Of a stretch of 56,622 bases of DNA, positions 2,745-56,528 are shown piece after piece. Position 1 is the stretch's first letter, and each line of letters starts with the position of its first letter. The DNA comes from Candidatus Roizmanbacteria bacterium (GTDB lineage: Bacteria > Patescibacteriota > Microgenomatia > UBA1406 > GWC2-37-13), in assembly GCA_013335175.1 (NCBI GenBank), contig JAAXWC010000009.1, positions 1 through 56,622 of the forward strand. The letters are read 5' to 3'. A program made the position numbers and the translations under genes. The notes beneath the pieces are model-generated. The model was not told the origin of the DNA, ran no database searches, and saw only the letters and a program-made list of their open reading frames with translations.

Positions 2745-4859
2745 ATGAGTAAAATTGAAAGATCATTTGGCGTTAATTGGCCAATAGAAGTTGGTAATCA
2801 TCCTATTGTATGTCAATCGAATGTGCTAGAGGAATCGATAGACACCGCATCTATTGAATTCGCGTTTCAACATCCCGATGAATTGCGAAATATTATTCTG
2901 AAAAGTGTTAAAGTTGAACCACTTGAGAAATTTGATGGTAAAAGCTTTGTGTGTGTATGGCCAACAAAATTTTGCCCTGTAGGCTGTGATATGTGTTTTT
3001 TTCATTCTCCGAAAGCAAATATGGAGAAAAAAACTCCGGAAACAACCCTTACTCAGGCTGGTCAAAGTAAATTTATACAATTTGTTAACGCAGCGAATAC
3101 AGGTGAACTGGTTATAGCAGGAGGCGGCGAGCCGTTCCACGAACCGGATTTCATGAATCAAATTGCGGAACAGGTGAAAGCAGATAAAATATTCCTAACA
3201 ACAAGTGGTATATGGGCAAAAAGCAAGCAAAAAGCGGAAACACTATTGAGTAACCTTTATGATGCTCACACACGGAACGGAAACGATACTCGATTAGATA
3301 TACGATTAAGCTTTGACAAATTTCATGCCAGTAAAATTTCACCTGACCATAGTTTGGGTTACGTATGGAACTTACTAGAAATATTTCGTGAGAAGTATAG
3401 AGATGCTGACTTTCGATTAAGCTTTCACACGATGTGGGGCGATGAAACTATGCAGGAGCTGTTAGATAAGCTTCCCGTAAGTGCGCGGACTCAGAAAAAT
3501 AACAAGACTGAGTTAATTTCTTTAGCAGACGGATTTACGTTTGAAATCAGATGGAGAAGGTTGTTTTATCCGAACCAGCACGCGAATTTAAATGATCGAG
3601 CAAGTGTTAAGAGCGCGAAGGATATTATGAATGAAGACATACTTACAGAACATAATGGAAACATGTCAGTAGTCTATCAAAACAATGGTGAGCCTTCGGG
3701 AGCTGATTTTCTTATCCATTATGATGGAACAGTCCTTAACTGGGGAGCCACATCGCCTGATAATGAACCAAGCTTATACAGTCAAGAATATGAAGAGGTT
3801 ATGGAACGTGCTTTAAGCGATGTCTTATCTCTAAGCGTTTTAGAGAAAGGAAATGCATATAGAGATTCTCTCATTGAGGAAATTAACCCAAAAGCGGTTG
3901 AAAGAGCAAAGGCATTTAATCTCCGTGATTTTTACTCAAGAACACAACTTGAAGAGTCATCTACAAGACTATACGCTTCGGTGAGAATAATCCAGGATTA
4001 CATCGCGGAAGGAAGAATTTCGCAGGAGCAAGTCCATAATTGGCCAAAAATCTTGCAAATGCTTATATCAGCTAAACCCAATACTCTTATTGATGTTTAC
4101 AATAAAATCAACCATAACATTGTTCACCAATACCTGGAACACGAAGGAACAACAGCAGATCAATTGGCACATCTTTACATGCTTACGCGCTTAGGCCAGT
4201 ACAATGTATCCCCACAAAATATGGTTGAAACTGTATCGAAGTCTGATTTTAGAGATAAAGAGCAGTTTAATAAGTATGTAGCAAAAATATTAGCTTTCGA
4301 GTTTATTGATAACCTATCACATTCGCTACATTCTGAACAAACTCCAGAAGGAGAAACGTCTCTACTATTAGAAGCATCCAGAGTTGTATTGATGAATCTT
4401 GACGAACTGAGAATTGGCGGTAGTGAAATAATAAAGGCATTACCTAGCACACTTAGAAGCAAGTTTAACGAAGTTATTGAAATACTATTAAGCGGTAGAT
4501 TGAATGATTTACCACCTGGCGAATATGCAATAGATTCGCTTTTTCTGAAAAGGATTTCAAAGAACGCAAGACCTACTACTACTGCAAAGGCAGAGCTTCA
4601 CACGGGTAATATTGACATTCACATAAATATTGGCGGGGGCGAGATGGCAGGTTTCAATACACAGGGGACCGCTACACTGGATAATGCAAAAAAAGACCCA
4701 AATACAGAGGGATTGATTCTCGATTGTCAACCAACGCAATGGAAAACTCTATCGCCGGGAGAAATCGCTTTTATATTTCCCCATACACCTCACGCTTTAG
4801 GAAAAGGAGAAACTGAACATAAAATAGAAAAAGCCGTAATAAAGCTTAGTTTAAGTTAA
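2745..4859 (+). CDS. Radical SAM protein with C-terminal YhcH-like domain
   Basis: The 704-aa protein carries a radical SAM cluster motif CPVGCDMC (Cys 77, 81 and 84; CX3CX2C), which would bind a 4Fe-4S cluster and S-adenosylmethionine. A GGGEP motif follows about 50 residues later, as usual for the SAM-binding strand. The middle third is helical and unrecognised. The last ~95 residues resemble the YhcH/YjgK/YiaL (DUF386, NanQ) beta-barrel family: HTGNIDIHINIGGGE near the start and PGEIAFIFPHTPHA near the end match its HxxxIDIHxxxxGxE and GxFAIFFPxxxH patterns. Those proteins act on sugar anomers. Start chosen at ATG 2745; an AGGTGG at 2725-2730 is a distant Shine-Dalgarno, and the upstream GTG at 2727 overlaps it. 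Substrate is unknown. Confidence 0.8.
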   Translation: MSKIERSFGVNWPIEVGNHPIVCQSNVLEESIDTASIEFAFQHPDELRNIILKSVKVEPLEKFDGKSFVCVWPTKFCPVGCDMCFFHSPKANMEKKTPETTLTQAGQSKFIQFVNAANTGELVIAGGGEPFHEPDFMNQIAEQVKADKIFLTTSGIWAKSKQKAETLLSNLYDAHTRNGNDTRLDIRLSFDKFHASKISPDHSLGYVWNLLEIFREKYRDADFRLSFHTMWGDETMQELLDKLPVSARTQKNNKTELISLADGFTFEIRWRRLFYPNQHANLNDRASVKSAKDIMNEDILTEHNGNMSVVYQNNGEPSGADFLIHYDGTVLNWGATSPDNEPSLYSQEYEEVMERALSDVLSLSVLEKGNAYRDSLIEEINPKAVERAKAFNLRDFYSRTQLEESSTRLYASVRIIQDYIAEGRISQEQVHNWPKILQMLISAKPNTLIDVYNKINHNIVHQYLEHEGTTADQLAHLYMLTRLGQYNVSPQNMVETVSKSDFRDKEQFNKYVAKILAFEFIDNLSHSLHSEQTPEGETSLLLEASRVVLMNLDELRIGGSEIIKALPSTLRSKFNEVIEILLSGRLNDLPPGEYAIDSLFLKRISKNARPTTTAKAELHTGNIDIHINIGGGEMAGFNTQGTATLDNAKKDPNTEGLILDCQPTQWKTLSPGEIAFIFPHTPHALGKGETEHKIEKAVIKLSLS

Positions 4860-5196: not shown

Positions 5197-5904
5197 TCAA
5201 GATGAAGACACAGTATCTGTATTAATTCTTAATTTTAGAAGAGATATAGCTTCTGCTTTCAGGTGAGATTTAACCCAATCTTTCTGCGATATAGTCAACA
5301 GTTCTCCTATTCCAAGCAATATATTCTTATTATCCAACTTTTCCAGTTGAGTAACACACTTTGCTAAAAAATCATTAAAACCTATCTCTGATCGCTTTTC
5401 AATAATTTCCTTATTAATCGGAAAGCGGTTCTTCAGAAAAAACCAAACGTCATAAATATCGCGGCTAGTTTTGTTGATTCGTTCGGACATCGCCATGAGT
5501 TTATGTGCAAACATATCTTCTTTGACCATGACTAGCATTGATACTCCCATATACGTTTTTAATTCGTAGTGAGAGCCAAACTGACGTCGATTTATTTCGA
5601 TTTTGATATTGTGAGCTTTTTCCTCGTATGAGATCAGCCAGAATAGGTTAAATCTTTTTATATATGACTCCTTGAGAATGCCATACTTTTCAGCTATTTT
5701 AGAAACTCTCTCAAAGATATAATCCTCCTTTGACTCATCGAGCAAGTCAAAGTCTAAATCAACCGAAAAACGGTCCAGATTATAAAACAGGAGTGTCGCT
5801 GTTCCGCCCTTAAAACCTAAAAAAGGTGCAATTGTGGTGTCAGAGTAGATTTCTTTGAGAATCTGAAACAATATGGTTTTGTGAGTGGGAATATTGAGAG
5901 TCAT
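5197..5904 (-). CDS. abiEii: AbiEii/AbiGii-type nucleotidyltransferase toxin
   Basis: A 235-aa protein with the nucleotidyltransferase signature of the AbiEii/AbiGii toxin family: FKGGTA at residues 31-36, then DRFSVDLDFD (44-53) with the paired Asp 49 and Asp 51 that bind the metal. A lysine and arginine-rich second half follows, as in the family. AbiEii toxins transfer nucleotides (for example to tRNA 3' ends in the MenT branch) and stop growth, giving abortive-infection phage defence. Its start overlaps the stop of the upstream antitoxin gene by 4 nt (ATGA), so the two are translationally coupled in the order antitoxin then toxin. Length is shorter than AbiEii of Streptococcus but normal for compact members. 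Confidence 0.88.
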   Translation of the reverse strand: MTLNIPTHKTILFQILKEIYSDTTIAPFLGFKGGTATLLFYNLDRFSVDLDFDLLDESKEDYIFERVSKIAEKYGILKESYIKRFNLFWLISYEEKAHNIKIEINRRQFGSHYELKTYMGVSMLVMVKEDMFAHKLMAMSERINKTSRDIYDVWFFLKNRFPINKEIIEKRSEIGFNDFLAKCVTQLEKLDNKNILLGIGELLTISQKDWVKSHLKAEAISLLKLRINTDTVSSS

Positions 5905-6473
5905 TTTGTTTGATATAAATCGTTTACTTTTGTAGCCATTCTTTGATTATTGTATATTGGTAGGATCTCATACACTTTATCCCAATTTATTGACCTTAAA
6001 TTATCAAAATGATAATCATTGTATGTATATAATGTATCAAGAAACGCACGTTCCTTGCTGGCTATTGACATTTCGTCGGTAATATCTACTCCCTGTGAGT
6101 TGGTGAGGATTTCATTTTTTAACTTTTTATATGAGTATATCTGCGTTTCGATAGTGATGTCCCGGGTTGTGTACGAAGCAAGAAAAATAGGATCATATAC
6201 CTGAAAGATTAATCCTTCTCTCGCTAAAACCGTTTCAAAACTGATGTAGGCGGGTACAAATATTTTTGTCGCCAGTTCTAACCTGGAATAATTGTGGCTT
6301 TTTGCATAAAGGCCTTTTCGAATTCTATATAAATCGCCCTTTTTGATATAGTAACTCATCCTTACTCGTGCGGCTGATGTGCTTTGACTTTGCCATAATA
6401 GAGAAATGTCTTTCGAGGTAAAAACTGTCCTATTTGATTTTAAAATAGTGCTTAAATAATCTCCTTTTTGCAT
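5901..6473 (-). CDS. abiEi: AbiEi-type antitoxin / transcriptional repressor
   Basis: A 190-aa protein with an N-terminal winged-helix part (TSKDISLLWQSQS..ARVRMSYYIKKGDLYRIRKGLY) typical of AbiEi antitoxins, followed by the conserved middle IFVPAYISFETVLAREGLIFQ and an SKERAFLDTLY block. Family members neutralise the AbiEii toxin indirectly and repress their own operon by binding inverted repeats upstream. Both expectations fit here: the toxin gene overlaps by 4 nt, and an imperfect inverted repeat covers the predicted transcription start (6482-6512). Start ATG at 6473 is the only sensible one, with MQKGDYLSTILKSN opening the winged-helix domain. Confidence 0.88.
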   Translation of the reverse strand: MQKGDYLSTILKSNRTVFTSKDISLLWQSQSTSAARVRMSYYIKKGDLYRIRKGLYAKSHNYSRLELATKIFVPAYISFETVLAREGLIFQVYDPIFLASYTTRDITIETQIYSYKKLKNEILTNSQGVDITDEMSIASKERAFLDTLYTYNDYHFDNLRSINWDKVYEILPIYNNQRMATKVNDLYQTK

Positions 6474-13071: not shown

Positions 13072-14940
13072 ATGGTACAACAAACAGAAAATAGCCCATT
13101 AACCAAGGTGATTGAAGCAACAGGTGCTCTTTCAAATAAATATAAAAATCCAGATAATAAAAATATTTTTTTATATAACTTTATGAGGGATTTTAATGCT
13201 CTTGATAAGGCAGCAATAGATGGATTCAGTGCTATGACGATAGTAGCAAACGCACGGCTTGTCGATACACCGGATTATCTTACCTACTCAAGATTGATAT
13301 GTGATTTTAATGCAGCTGCTTGTTTCGGGACGGATTTGCGCGAAGATAGAAACAAAGCTTCTTTCCAAATCTATAATGAACTCATAGATAATATTCCTCT
13401 GTCTCCAGAAAATGTTGTTGTTGCTGGCTATAAAAAAATTTCAAAACCTAATCATGACACTACGGTCCTAGAACTTGGCTCTCAAATATATTTATTAAGC
13501 GTTTTAAATCAATTATCTCAGATTGCGCAAAATAATAATTTTTTGAATGAGTATAATGCCTTTGCTAAGTCGAACCGACTTTACTATGCTTTTGATTCTG
13601 TTTTTCCTATGTTGGGGGTGTGTTTGGAGGATCTGCATAATTTAGAAACGAAAAGTACGATATCAAAGATCGAGGCATTCAACTATTTACTTTCTTCACT
13701 CAACTGCACACCTACGGATGACATAACTGATTTGGTGTTAAATAGCGGAACTAACTACCTTTGGTACACCAGCAACTATGCGAGATCCCTGAGTGCACGA
13801 ATTTCTCAGCTTGTTGAAACTCCTTTGAGTGAAATGGAGTATCAAATAAATAGGAGCAATAAAAAAAATGACAATACTAGAAAAATATCTGCAATGTGTG
13901 GAAAGCAACTTCTATTAGCAGTGCAACAGATTGGAAATGAAGTACAAGAAATAGTATTTGATCCCGAACGACCAGAATTCTCTACAATTAGTACTTCGCT
14001 TTCCAATTACATTGGACGGGAGGGATACGCTTGTAATACTGCTCTTCAATTTGCAGGTTTTACAACGAAAAAAGCGGTTATCGAAGGATATCGAAACGCA
14101 CGAGAACGATCTTATGTAGACGACGAGCATAAGTCGTTTTATGAAAATTTAGCTATTGGCTTATTGGAACTGGGCACGTATAAATTTAACCTGAAAAATA
14201 TTGCCGATGTCGAGCAGATTATGACAGAAGAATGCGACTATGTTCCCGCTGTTATTGATCCGCTAACGAATCATATAAATGAGTCACTAGCAGTTTTACC
14301 TCAAAAAAAGCGCACGATAACTCCCTTTGTTGATTTTGAAAAAATAACCGGATTTTTACCTCCTAAAAAAATCACTTTTGAACCAGGAACTCAATGTGTT
14401 TTTACCCTGGAATACAAACCGTACGAAAATGATCAAGACCCATTTACTTTTAAGCTTACTTACGATTCCGAAACTTCGGAATTAGATTGGTCACTGGAGA
14501 ATGATCCGAATGCTGCGGAATCGCAATTCGTAAAAACGCAAGCTCTCAGATTAATAGATGGTATCGTTACTCATATTGACAATGGTCAAAGTACTGTAAA
14601 GGGAAACGGAGGCAAAGTATATATAGAACCGATACCAAAAATACCCGCCATGGTACCTCCTGTAAGAAAGCCAGAAGAAGTAACAAGCACTCATTTAAAG
14701 AGAATTGAATTCTCTACTGTGAAGCCTATCAAATTGAGTGAGGAGTATGCGACAGCTATTTCAGAAGCACTGACTGGATTTAATAATAGAAAAACAATCA
14801 ACGATACTCGTATGCAACAGCATTCGCTTAGGGTATCTTCTATACAAGAAGGGGCGATAACTATTGTTGTAGAGGACATGGGATTCTCTTACGAGGTACG
14901 AACGGTGCTGTACCAAGATAAACGTGTATACCAATACTAA
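13072..14940 (+). CDS. Hypothetical protein, 622 aa
   Basis: A long soluble protein that I cannot place in a family. The first ~390 residues are helical, with many Asn and Tyr residues. The last third is strand-rich, with repeated VKPIKL / ITFEPGTQCVFTLEYKP-type segments and a proline-rich joint (IPKIPAMVPPVRKPEEV) near residue 525. No signal peptide, membrane helix or catalytic motif is visible. TATAAT at 13054-13059 ends 12 nt before the ATG, giving a near-leaderless transcript that diverges from rsmI. It lies 28 bases before uvrB, so it may share transcripts with the repair genes. Confidence 0.65.
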   Translation: MVQQTENSPLTKVIEATGALSNKYKNPDNKNIFLYNFMRDFNALDKAAIDGFSAMTIVANARLVDTPDYLTYSRLICDFNAAACFGTDLREDRNKASFQIYNELIDNIPLSPENVVVAGYKKISKPNHDTTVLELGSQIYLLSVLNQLSQIAQNNNFLNEYNAFAKSNRLYYAFDSVFPMLGVCLEDLHNLETKSTISKIEAFNYLLSSLNCTPTDDITDLVLNSGTNYLWYTSNYARSLSARISQLVETPLSEMEYQINRSNKKNDNTRKISAMCGKQLLLAVQQIGNEVQEIVFDPERPEFSTISTSLSNYIGREGYACNTALQFAGFTTKKAVIEGYRNARERSYVDDEHKSFYENLAIGLLELGTYKFNLKNIADVEQIMTEECDYVPAVIDPLTNHINESLAVLPQKKRTITPFVDFEKITGFLPPKKITFEPGTQCVFTLEYKPYENDQDPFTFKLTYDSETSELDWSLENDPNAAESQFVKTQALRLIDGIVTHIDNGQSTVKGNGGKVYIEPIPKIPAMVPPVRKPEEVTSTHLKRIEFSTVKPIKLSEEYATAISEALTGFNNRKTINDTRMQQHSLRVSSIQEGAITIVVEDMGFSYEVRTVLYQDKRVYQY

Positions 14941-48065: not shown

Positions 48066-48142
48066 GAATCTATTGTAGCCGATCCTTTAAGGAAAACAAG
48101 AGCCTCAATAAGGATAAACCATATTTGTTATATAATACCCTC

Positions 48143-49534
48143 ATGGAAATCGCGAGAAATGTGAGTCAGGGGGAAATATTTACAAAACCAGGTTGCGAAA
48201 ATTTGTACTTTGAACCATTGCCTTTTGTTGAGGGTAGGGAGGTCTTTATTAACGGAAGAAGGCATGAATTTACAATGCTTGCTCTGCAAGGGTACATAGG
48301 AGAAGTTGGATCAGTAGATCTCCATAAAGAAAGGAATGATGTTACAGAAATGTATTTTCCGTTATGTGGAAACCTTGAGGTTTCTGTGCAAAAACAAGGA
48401 GTAAATCCTAATACCTTGGAGCGAGACATCCTCACTGGTACCTATACGTGGGAAGAAGTATCCCGTTCTTACATGAGACTCATTCAAGGAGAAGAACCAC
48501 TATTAGTCGTAGCTGTTAATGGAAAAGAAACAGTTATTCGACCGACTATTCTGCCACCTGGTTTAAAACATGCAAGTAAAAAAGTAGGTTCCGAAACGGG
48601 AATCAACCCGCTATTTTTAGCTTTGAAGGCAAAACAATCATATACTCCCGCAGAAATACGAGAGAAAATATCTACTTCATCATTGAGCACAATGAATACT
48701 GTTCAATGGGGTTCTGGGCATCTTACAAAACTTGAGTGGGAAATGGTATGTAAGATGAAAACAACATTGGGAAGTTGGGAGGCTGTCCGAGATAATCTTC
48801 GACAGGGAAATCGGATACTACCTACTTATGTTTCTGACTTTGAAGTAGTCGAGGCTGGCGTTGTACACGGGTGTCCTATTATTACAGATTTAATGTTGGG
48901 ACCACGAACAAATGAAGATGTCTTTCAAGGCTATACCGAGAAAAATCGAGGATTTCGTGCTTTTGCAAAAATGATGAGAGACGAGAATAGAGCTGATCTA
49001 CTCTCCGCATGGACGGGTATTGAAGAAAAACAATCTACTGATTTTTCTCCTCTCAACGTGCAGTATGGGACACCGAAGGAACTGCAAGGAAAACTTGCCG
49101 GAAATGCAAAGATCGAGCCATTTTGGGTTAGTCAAATTCTCCGGGTGTTAGAAGACACACGAATGGGACGGCGTAAGGATATTCCAACATCACTTATTGA
49201 TAAATTTGCTATGCCTTGGGAGGAGAACTTTCTTGATATCATTAAATCCCCTTCGACAAGAACTATTCAAGATGTTACGGTAAAAACGATCGGAAGAATT
49301 GCAGATATCCTCCATACAAGGGGAGTAAAAGAGAAATATATTCTTCTCGTGTTAACGAATGGCTTACCTATAACTAGTATGCTTAACGAACATGGACAGG
49401 TAGAAAAAATGAAAATTCTTACAGGGCGAGTTGCAAACGAATTGGTTGAACTGAAACTGCAATCTCTAAGCAAATCCTTTCAATCCTATGCAGAACAGCA
49501 AATAGAGGCGTATATGGGTGCAAAAACGAAATGA
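48143..49534 (+). CDS. Hypothetical protein, 463 aa
   Basis: Not recognised. The N-terminal third is strand-rich (VFINGRRHEFTMLALQGYIG, then FPLCGNLEVSV) and may be a small beta domain. The rest is helical with repeated IREKIS- and VRDNLRQG-like segments. No signal peptide, membrane helix or P-loop. TATAAT at 48131-48136 ends 6 nt before ATG 48143, so an in-frame ATG at 48125 lies upstream of the transcript start and is rejected. Its 3' end abuts the first tRNA-end repeat at 49535. Confidence 0.6.
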   Translation: MEIARNVSQGEIFTKPGCENLYFEPLPFVEGREVFINGRRHEFTMLALQGYIGEVGSVDLHKERNDVTEMYFPLCGNLEVSVQKQGVNPNTLERDILTGTYTWEEVSRSYMRLIQGEEPLLVVAVNGKETVIRPTILPPGLKHASKKVGSETGINPLFLALKAKQSYTPAEIREKISTSSLSTMNTVQWGSGHLTKLEWEMVCKMKTTLGSWEAVRDNLRQGNRILPTYVSDFEVVEAGVVHGCPIITDLMLGPRTNEDVFQGYTEKNRGFRAFAKMMRDENRADLLSAWTGIEEKQSTDFSPLNVQYGTPKELQGKLAGNAKIEPFWVSQILRVLEDTRMGRRKDIPTSLIDKFAMPWEENFLDIIKSPSTRTIQDVTVKTIGRIADILHTRGVKEKYILLVLTNGLPITSMLNEHGQVEKMKILTGRVANELVELKLQSLSKSFQSYAEQQIEAYMGAKTK

Positions 49535-55458: not shown

Positions 55459-56469
55459 TTAGCAAAGTCTAGGTAGTTCTTGCCCGTATAAATGTTCAAT
55501 TATTTCTGAGGTTCCATCAACACGAAGCCCTGTTACCTGTTGTTTATTATTTTCAGTAACAAAGCCTACTTTGACAGCATTTATACCATATTTATTCTTA
55601 TGCAAGGTATTAAGCACTTTAGATGTGATATTTGGCTTACATATGATACTTAAACATCCTTCATTTGCTAAATATAGGGGGTTAATTCCTAACATATCAG
55701 CTGCCATTTGGGTTTCACGCATTATTGGTAGATCACATTGATTTACAATTAATTCCTTATGAATTGCATCAGAAATTTCATTAAGAGCGCTTCCTAATCC
55801 ACCTCGCGTTAAATCTCGCATGTATTTAATATCCATTCCACCTACTTTTATCACTTCTGCGATCATGTGATTCAATGGAGCACAATCACTTAAAACATTG
55901 TTTTCATATCCCAATCCTTCTCTCATAGATAGTATGTGAATACTATGATTACCCAACATTCCTGTTATGATGATATCATCTCCTGCTTCTATTTTTGCTA
56001 ATGTTAATTTTGGGGATGTATTTGAGAAGACTCCAATCCCACTTGTATTCAAATATATTTTATCTAGCTCATTTTTTTTCACTACTTTAGTATCTCCAGC
56101 AACAATGTAAATATTTGCTTCAATTGCAGTTTCTTTAATTGATCTTAAAATTCTAATAAAGTCTTTCATCGGGAATCCTTCTTCAAGTATTATCCCGAGT
56201 GTTAAGTAACAAGGAGTTGCTCCAGATACAGCTAAGTCGTTTACTGTACCACATATAGCAATTTTGCCTATATCTCCGTTTTTAAAAAAAATTGGATCAA
56301 CAACAAACGAATCGGTTGTCATTGCTAATGTTTGAGATTGTACTTTAAATACCGCACTATCCTCCATTATTCCAAGGTATCTGTCACCTAAATTTGAAGC
56401 TATAACATTTGTTACAAGATCTTGGCTTAATAGACCGCCTGTACCATGATCTAAAATTATTGTTTCCAT
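55459..56469 (-). CDS. hypE: HypE-like hydrogenase maturation protein
   Basis: 336 aa. The AIR-synthase-like fold is shown by ILDHGTGGLLSQDLV, AMTTDSFVVDPIFFKNGDIG, NDLAVSGATPCYLTL, and GDTKVV. The end PRLC supplies the C-terminal cysteine that HypE carbamoylates and turns into a thiocyanate on the way to the cyanide ligands of [NiFe] hydrogenase. No hydrogenase or other hyp genes are visible, so its use here is unclear. ATG 56469 matches the usual METIxLDHGxGG opening; a longer start at 56487 is possible. The gene is AT-rich and lies next to a transposase fragment, in keeping with transfer. Confidence 0.85.
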   Translation of the reverse strand: METIILDHGTGGLLSQDLVTNVIASNLGDRYLGIMEDSAVFKVQSQTLAMTTDSFVVDPIFFKNGDIGKIAICGTVNDLAVSGATPCYLTLGIILEEGFPMKDFIRILRSIKETAIEANIYIVAGDTKVVKKNELDKIYLNTSGIGVFSNTSPKLTLAKIEAGDDIIITGMLGNHSIHILSMREGLGYENNVLSDCAPLNHMIAEVIKVGGMDIKYMRDLTRGGLGSALNEISDAIHKELIVNQCDLPIMRETQMAADMLGINPLYLANEGCLSIICKPNITSKVLNTLHKNKYGINAVKVGFVTENNKQQVTGLRVDGTSEIIEHLYGQELPRLC

Positions 56470-56528
56470 ATCTTTTGATAGAAGCATATTAATTATGGGT
56501 ACTGACTAGATAACTAATAACTACAGGA

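Follow-up and report, generated by a model that had tools for sequence, protein, structure and literature searches.

A radical SAM protein with a C-terminal DUF386/YhcH domain in a Roizmanbacteria genome: a possible enzyme of sugar or nucleotide metabolism

Introduction

What could a radical SAM enzyme do with a domain of the YhcH anomerase family attached to its own C-terminus? The question is raised by a gene of Candidatus Roizmanbacteria bacterium, located in a contig (JAAXWC010000009.1, assembly GCA_013335175.1) whose whole stretch of 56,622 nucleotides was analysed and is here called the window. YhcH is a metal-dependent anomerase that opens the ring of Neu5Ac (PMC8141875). For orphan radical SAM enzymes, the domain to which they are fused gives a strong hint of what they act on. 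In the open-licence papers searched, no fusion of a radical SAM enzyme with DUF386 is described, and the radical SAM subfamily to which this protein belongs also appears to be undescribed there.

Gene and domain organization

On the plus strand, positions 2745-4859 constitute a single stop-free open reading frame that encodes 704 amino acids from the ATG at 2745; an in-frame GTG at 2727 is an alternative start, which would yield 710 amino acids. The architecture of the protein, namely a radical SAM core, a helical module and a C-terminal DUF386/YhcH domain, can be considered secure. It is a new arrangement within known superfamilies, and the exact fusion is known here from one genome. Its elements are the following:

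2745..4859, plus strand: whole gene (uninterrupted frame, Pfam matches at both ends)
2922..3764, plus strand: radical SAM core, residues ~60-340 (Pfam PF04055/PF13353, model, motifs)
2973-2996, plus strand: CPVGCDMC cluster motif (motif position)
3120-3134, plus strand: GGGEP motif (motif position)
3303-3326, plus strand: RLSFDKFH (motif position)
3777..4274, plus strand: helical module, residues ~345-510 (alignment, in which the closer relatives conserve it along with the core; predicted helices)
4275..4406, plus strand: helical linker from the module to the DUF386 domain (pLDDT ~50-78; unconserved in relatives)
4407..4856, plus strand: complete DUF386/YhcH-like domain, Pfam match 4437-4847 (PF04074, whole-chain YhcH structural match, invariant residues)
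4590-4643, plus strand: AELHTGNIDIHINIGGGE (motif position)
4779-4793, plus strand: PHTPH (motif position)

Inspection of the domain junction by eye gave no convincing candidate for an internal start that has a ribosome-binding site close by. The gene is solitary: on one side lies a gene without an assigned family, on the other an AbiEi/AbiEii pair; no pathway neighbours were found and, by Pfam, no sugar-nucleotide genes were recognised adjoining it. The gaps that flank the gene contain no convincing small open reading frame resembling a precursor peptide, which could still be encoded elsewhere in the genome. Searches with PADLOC and PHROGs returned no informative family for the protein.

Regarding the rest of the window, the AbiEii/AbiEi type IV toxin-antitoxin pair occupies 5197-6473 on the minus strand, just downstream of the gene. 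Two other open reading frames, 1654-2517 (287 amino acids) and 13072-14940 (622 amino acids), belong to no Pfam family. The 469-residue protein encoded at 48125-49534, also without a Pfam match, has an N-terminal part that looks by eye like a cupin or sugar-binding barrel, and the 342-residue protein encoded at 55459-56487 resembles, again by eye only, the hydrogenase maturation protein HypE.

The radical SAM core and the helical module

The original prediction had recognised a radical SAM core from the CPVGCDMC and GGGEP motifs, and this was borne out: both were located, they are invariant or nearly so across 19 homologues, and the partial barrel predicted for this region has a clear counterpart among solved structures. 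In Pfam, the Radical_SAM family PF04055 falls narrowly under its cut-off (27.6 vs 29.5 bits) and Fer4_12 is over its own at the N-terminus (24.5 vs 22); the helical module matched no Pfam family. In a full-length structure model, built from an alignment with 22 other sequences, residues ~40-510 form, for the most part with confidence, a radical SAM partial barrel with helices C-terminal to it, the pLDDT being mostly above 85 in the core. The best solved match of the core model by VIA-align is EpeE (8ai6), with a Z of 19.6 over 293 residues, and its next structural neighbours are viperin (Z 13.9), BlsE (12.6), MoaA (12.3) and DesII (12.1). The family profile also finds EpeE, at an E of 3e-11. 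The protein nevertheless scores far below what is required for membership of either equivalent NCBI family: 32.5 bits vs 300 for EpeE/YydG (TIGR04078), and 18.6 vs 180 for viperin (NF038283).

Cysteines are scarce in the 704-residue protein, where they occur only at positions 23, 70, 77, 81, 84 and 661, with none in residues 85-660; C77, C81 and C84 are the only ones conserved in the family. As judged from the aligned sequences, the radical SAM part conserves no ligands for an auxiliary iron-sulfur cluster.

The DUF386/YhcH domain

The C-terminus had been assigned to DUF386/YhcH over its last ~95 residues. The identity is correct and the length is not, given that the domain spans ~137-150 residues: PF04074 matches residues 571-707 of the 710-residue frame at an E of 7e-19 (68.7 bits vs a cut-off of 26.5). 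The NCBIfam model TIGR00022 (YhcH/YjgK/YiaL) is also over its cut-off (52.1 vs 45.5 bits), and the one for the N-acetylneuraminate anomerase NanQ, NF040884, gives 54.5 bits vs the 160 required. The residues conserved in DUF386 are present (E617, H619, D624, H626, E633, H683, K696 and K700), and all the invariants of the DUF386 set, ExHx4DxH, GxE, H and KxVxK, are kept.

In the full-length model this domain was poor (pLDDT <50), probably a consequence of the small number of DUF386 sequences aligned. When the last 154 residues were modelled alone together with eight freestanding DUF386 proteins, the pLDDT reached 83 and the model superimposed on YhcH (1s4c) with a Z of 18.7, a TM of 0.80 and an rmsd of 2.4 over 145 residues, and on YjgK (9jrr) with a Z of 18.1. 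The original prediction had named another fold, such as that of an unrelated cupin family, as grounds for refutation; the best match of that kind, at a Z of 10.7, lies far under YhcH and YjgK, and the objection falls away. The domain shares 18-27% identity with freestanding DUF386 proteins of the same phylum, whose genes adjoin others that read as cytidylyltransferase and NeuB-like, i.e., as genes of nonulosonic-acid synthesis.

Relatives and their genomic context

When GTDB contigs were searched with a five-sequence alignment, 21 homologous loci were recovered, in Patescibacteria-type phyla, Omnitrophota, Nitrospinota, Bacillota, Pseudomonadota and Actinomycetota. The radical SAM core and the helical module (residues ~40-510) are conserved in six or more phyla, though very sporadically: the genomes bearing the module amount to 2/83, 3/373, 3/380, 1/49, 1/213, 1/142 and 3/308 per sample, with the seed genome counted in every case. 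No close relatives were detected by a single-sequence scan in GTDB contigs or in viral contigs, and the alignment query retrieved no homologue from the latter; phages gave no match and plasmids only one, in Rhizobium (22%).

Ten of the 21 loci (8 complete and 2 cut off; L014, L016-L024) encode proteins of ~710 amino acids in which the module is followed by a C-terminal histidine-phosphatase-type domain. They are hosted by gut Bacilli, Clostridia, an alphaproteobacterium and Patescibacteria, and their homology with the 704-residue protein extends over residues ~40-500, with about 27-34% identity. The extra domain matches His_Phos_1 at an E of 2e-26 in a Patescibacteria copy and is GpmB/alpha-ribazole-phosphatase-like in Bacilli, the remaining ones having been assigned through alignment and motifs. 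GpmB-type enzymes carry the motif RELNMG with a catalytic Glu. At this place, all seven complete aligned sequences (L014, L016, L017, L020, L021, L022, L024) read RGLNMG or RGFNMG, from which it appears uncertain that the domain is active as a phosphatase; it may serve for binding, or another acid may be in use.

In the GTDB scan, eight loci of this fused type (L014, L016, L018, L019, L021, L022, L023, L024) contain, mostly directly upstream, a gene for a ~325-residue protein similar to the AlaRS core and devoid of the other AlaRS domains. Seven of these eight also have a peptidase S51 gene, and three of the loci with these neighbours a gene for a second, RlmN-like radical SAM protein.

A second form comprises stand-alone proteins of ~430-444 amino acids from actinobacteria and Rhizobium (L004, L027-L033). 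A UPRTase-like PRTase gene lies immediately 3′ at 8/8 loci, the Rhizobium plasmid copy counted, an inositol-monophosphatase (IMPase) homologue is found at 5/8, and transporter genes at some. This group of genes, present in Streptomyces, Amycolatopsis (with an amidohydrolase too), Rhizohabitans, Janibacter and Rhizobium, looks like an undescribed small-molecule pathway. Examining the neighbours of homologues for sugar or peptide genes, as had been suggested, gave a divided answer, with PRTase and IMPase beside the stand-alone form and AlaRS-like and S51 genes beside the fused one.

Some relatives fit neither form: those of Tahibacter (467 amino acids), of a Roizmanbacteria genome (450 amino acids, adjoining ATP-grasp genes of the D-Ala-D-Ala ligase-like type) and of Nitrospinota (536 amino acids), and a frame of Omnitrophota with more than 4,000 codons. 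The latter (L013, 122-13021) is one open frame that combines the radical SAM module with a separate His_Phos domain, a DUF218-like part and a methyltransferase-like stretch. The idea that a phosphatase accompanies every relative was abandoned, since the metallophosphatase of Tahibacter is missing next to a second relative of the same order; only the links to fused His_Phos and to IMPase were retained. A phylogenetic tree built from the module places the 704-residue protein in one group (98/98) with the sequences of Omnitrophota, Tahibacter and the His_Phos type, the order inside this group lacking resolution, and the stand-alone form is set off by a long branch.

DUF386 is absent from all translated relatives, and no second radical SAM-DUF386 fusion exists among the relatives searched. 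The original prediction had feared a chimera seen nowhere else; within the sequences searched, this holds for the exact pair of domains, but the radical SAM module itself is found repeatedly, joined at the same position to a different C-terminal domain.

Proposed function and alternative explanations

The reading we prefer, to which we give a probability of roughly 40%, is that the protein represents an apparently undescribed radical SAM subfamily whose substrate is a small sugar, a sugar-phosphate or a nucleotide, with its own DUF386 domain for ring opening or anomerisation in this particular case. The radical SAM part would take a hydrogen from such a substrate and, without an auxiliary cluster, might carry out a rearrangement, an elimination, or an epimerisation with a hydrogen donor other than cysteine. 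The DUF386 half, in turn, would open or anomerise the sugar ring of the substrate or the product. In the relatives, the same slot holds the histidine-phosphatase-type domain, or a PRTase and an IMPase are encoded by neighbouring genes.

This class of substrate is favoured by the identity of the DUF386 domain and its intact conserved residues, by its replacement by His_Phos in the same C-terminal slot, and by the PRTase and IMPase neighbours of the stand-alone relatives, with further support from viperin, BlsE, MoaA and DesII, structural neighbours of the core that act on nucleotides and sugars. Several observations go in the opposite direction: the top match by structure and by sequence is a peptide epimerase, EpeE; the AlaRS-like and S51 genes beside the fused relatives suggest amino acids or peptides; the RGLNMG motif makes the phosphatase activity of their extra domain uncertain; and the gene studied here has no pathway neighbours, its pairing with DUF386 being a singleton. 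A broader proposal, that an undescribed subfamily spread over many phyla acts on a sugar-phosphate or nucleotide with a swappable C-terminal partner, the DUF386 anomerase here and a histidine-phosphatase-type domain elsewhere, is put forward only tentatively.

An enzyme related to EpeE that modifies peptides or amino acids, with a C-terminal domain secondarily acquired to bind another ligand, seems rather doubtful to us, despite the considerable distance between EpeE and the next family in the fold comparison, the profile match, the recurrent AlaRS-core-like and S51 genes, and the ATP-grasp genes of the Roizmanbacteria relative. EpeE contains two [4Fe-4S] clusters, is proposed to use Cys223 in catalysis, and modifies a peptide encoded adjacent to it (PMC8326336); here, conservation is limited to the three cysteines of the CPVGCDMC motif, the long stretch that follows is free of cysteine, and no precursor-like frame was seen in the flanking gaps. 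The original prediction had offered a sugar, or a sugar-linked peptide or nucleotide, as target, with the C-terminal barrel binding the sugar. Sugars and nucleotides gain from the partner domains and neighbours described above, while the sugar-linked peptide is weakened, with neither a precursor nor an auxiliary cluster nor a quenching cysteine.

It is improbable that the gene is a recent or non-functional chimera of functionally unrelated halves, arising either from the merging of a DUF386 gene with a radical SAM gene gained by horizontal transfer or from an assembly join. The uniqueness of the fusion would agree with such an origin, as would the lack of any match to DUF386 in 14/14 homologue-bearing genomes tested and of a close relative confirming the junction. 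Against it stand the 704 stop-free codons, a DUF386 domain that is complete, well diverged from its freestanding counterparts and intact in its conserved residues, the GC level, unchanged across the junction, the fact that this copy is the sole DUF386 detected in the 1.45-Mb genome, and the presence in relatives of another fused domain at this very position. Still less credit can be given to a role in the metabolism of nonulosonic (sialic-type) acids, with DUF386 serving that sugar as in NanQ/YhcH. The known Neu5Ac activity of the family and the setting of the freestanding genes of the phylum speak for it; it is made unlikely by the host genome, which has no NeuB match, and the low NanQ score and the lack of recognised sugar-nucleotide genes beside the gene also count against it.

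If the sugar or nucleotide reading is true, a step of radical chemistry with sugars, free or phosphorylated, or nucleotides as substrates would be added, and DUF386 would gain a role beyond the use of sialic acid. It would also be, to our knowledge, the first case of a single polypeptide uniting a radical SAM enzyme with a sugar ring-opening domain. Two unrelated partners of sugar type in one slot point to a single, testable class of substrates, and the stand-alone relatives of Streptomyces, Amycolatopsis, Rhizobium and others, placed beside PRTase, IMPase and some transporter genes, look like part of small-molecule metabolism.

Comparison with known systems

EpeE/YydG (TIGR04078; PDB 8ai1-8ai6) has the radical SAM fold and sequence in common with the 704-residue protein, including the S-x-D-x-x-H segment. 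Our protein differs in having neither the second cluster, nor a counterpart of Cys223, nor a peptide gene seen nearby, and in the added helical module and DUF386 domain. Since the cysteines of the auxiliary cluster and Cys223 are absent and no precursor frame was recognised in the flanks, it has the fold of EpeE without the apparatus known for that enzyme's reaction. Viperin, MoaA, BlsE and DesII, radical SAM enzymes of nucleotides and sugars, have a similar fold (Z 12-14), less similar than that of EpeE.

With YhcH/NanQ and YjgK (PF04074, TIGR00022; 1s4c, 9jrr), the C-terminal domain shares the whole fold and the family invariants, but here it is fused behind a radical SAM enzyme, scores under the NanQ equivalog cut-off and occurs in a genome without NeuB. 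The stand-alone radical SAM proteins of actinobacteria and Rhizobium have a homologous core in which the motifs CPVxCxxC and GGGEP recur, although they lack a C-terminal fusion and have instead the PRTase gene 3′ at all their loci. Finally, the radical SAM-His_Phos fusions carry a metabolite-enzyme domain at the same C-terminal place, but of GpmB/alpha-ribazole-phosphatase-like type rather than DUF386, and are distinguished by their recurrent AlaRS-like and S51 neighbours.
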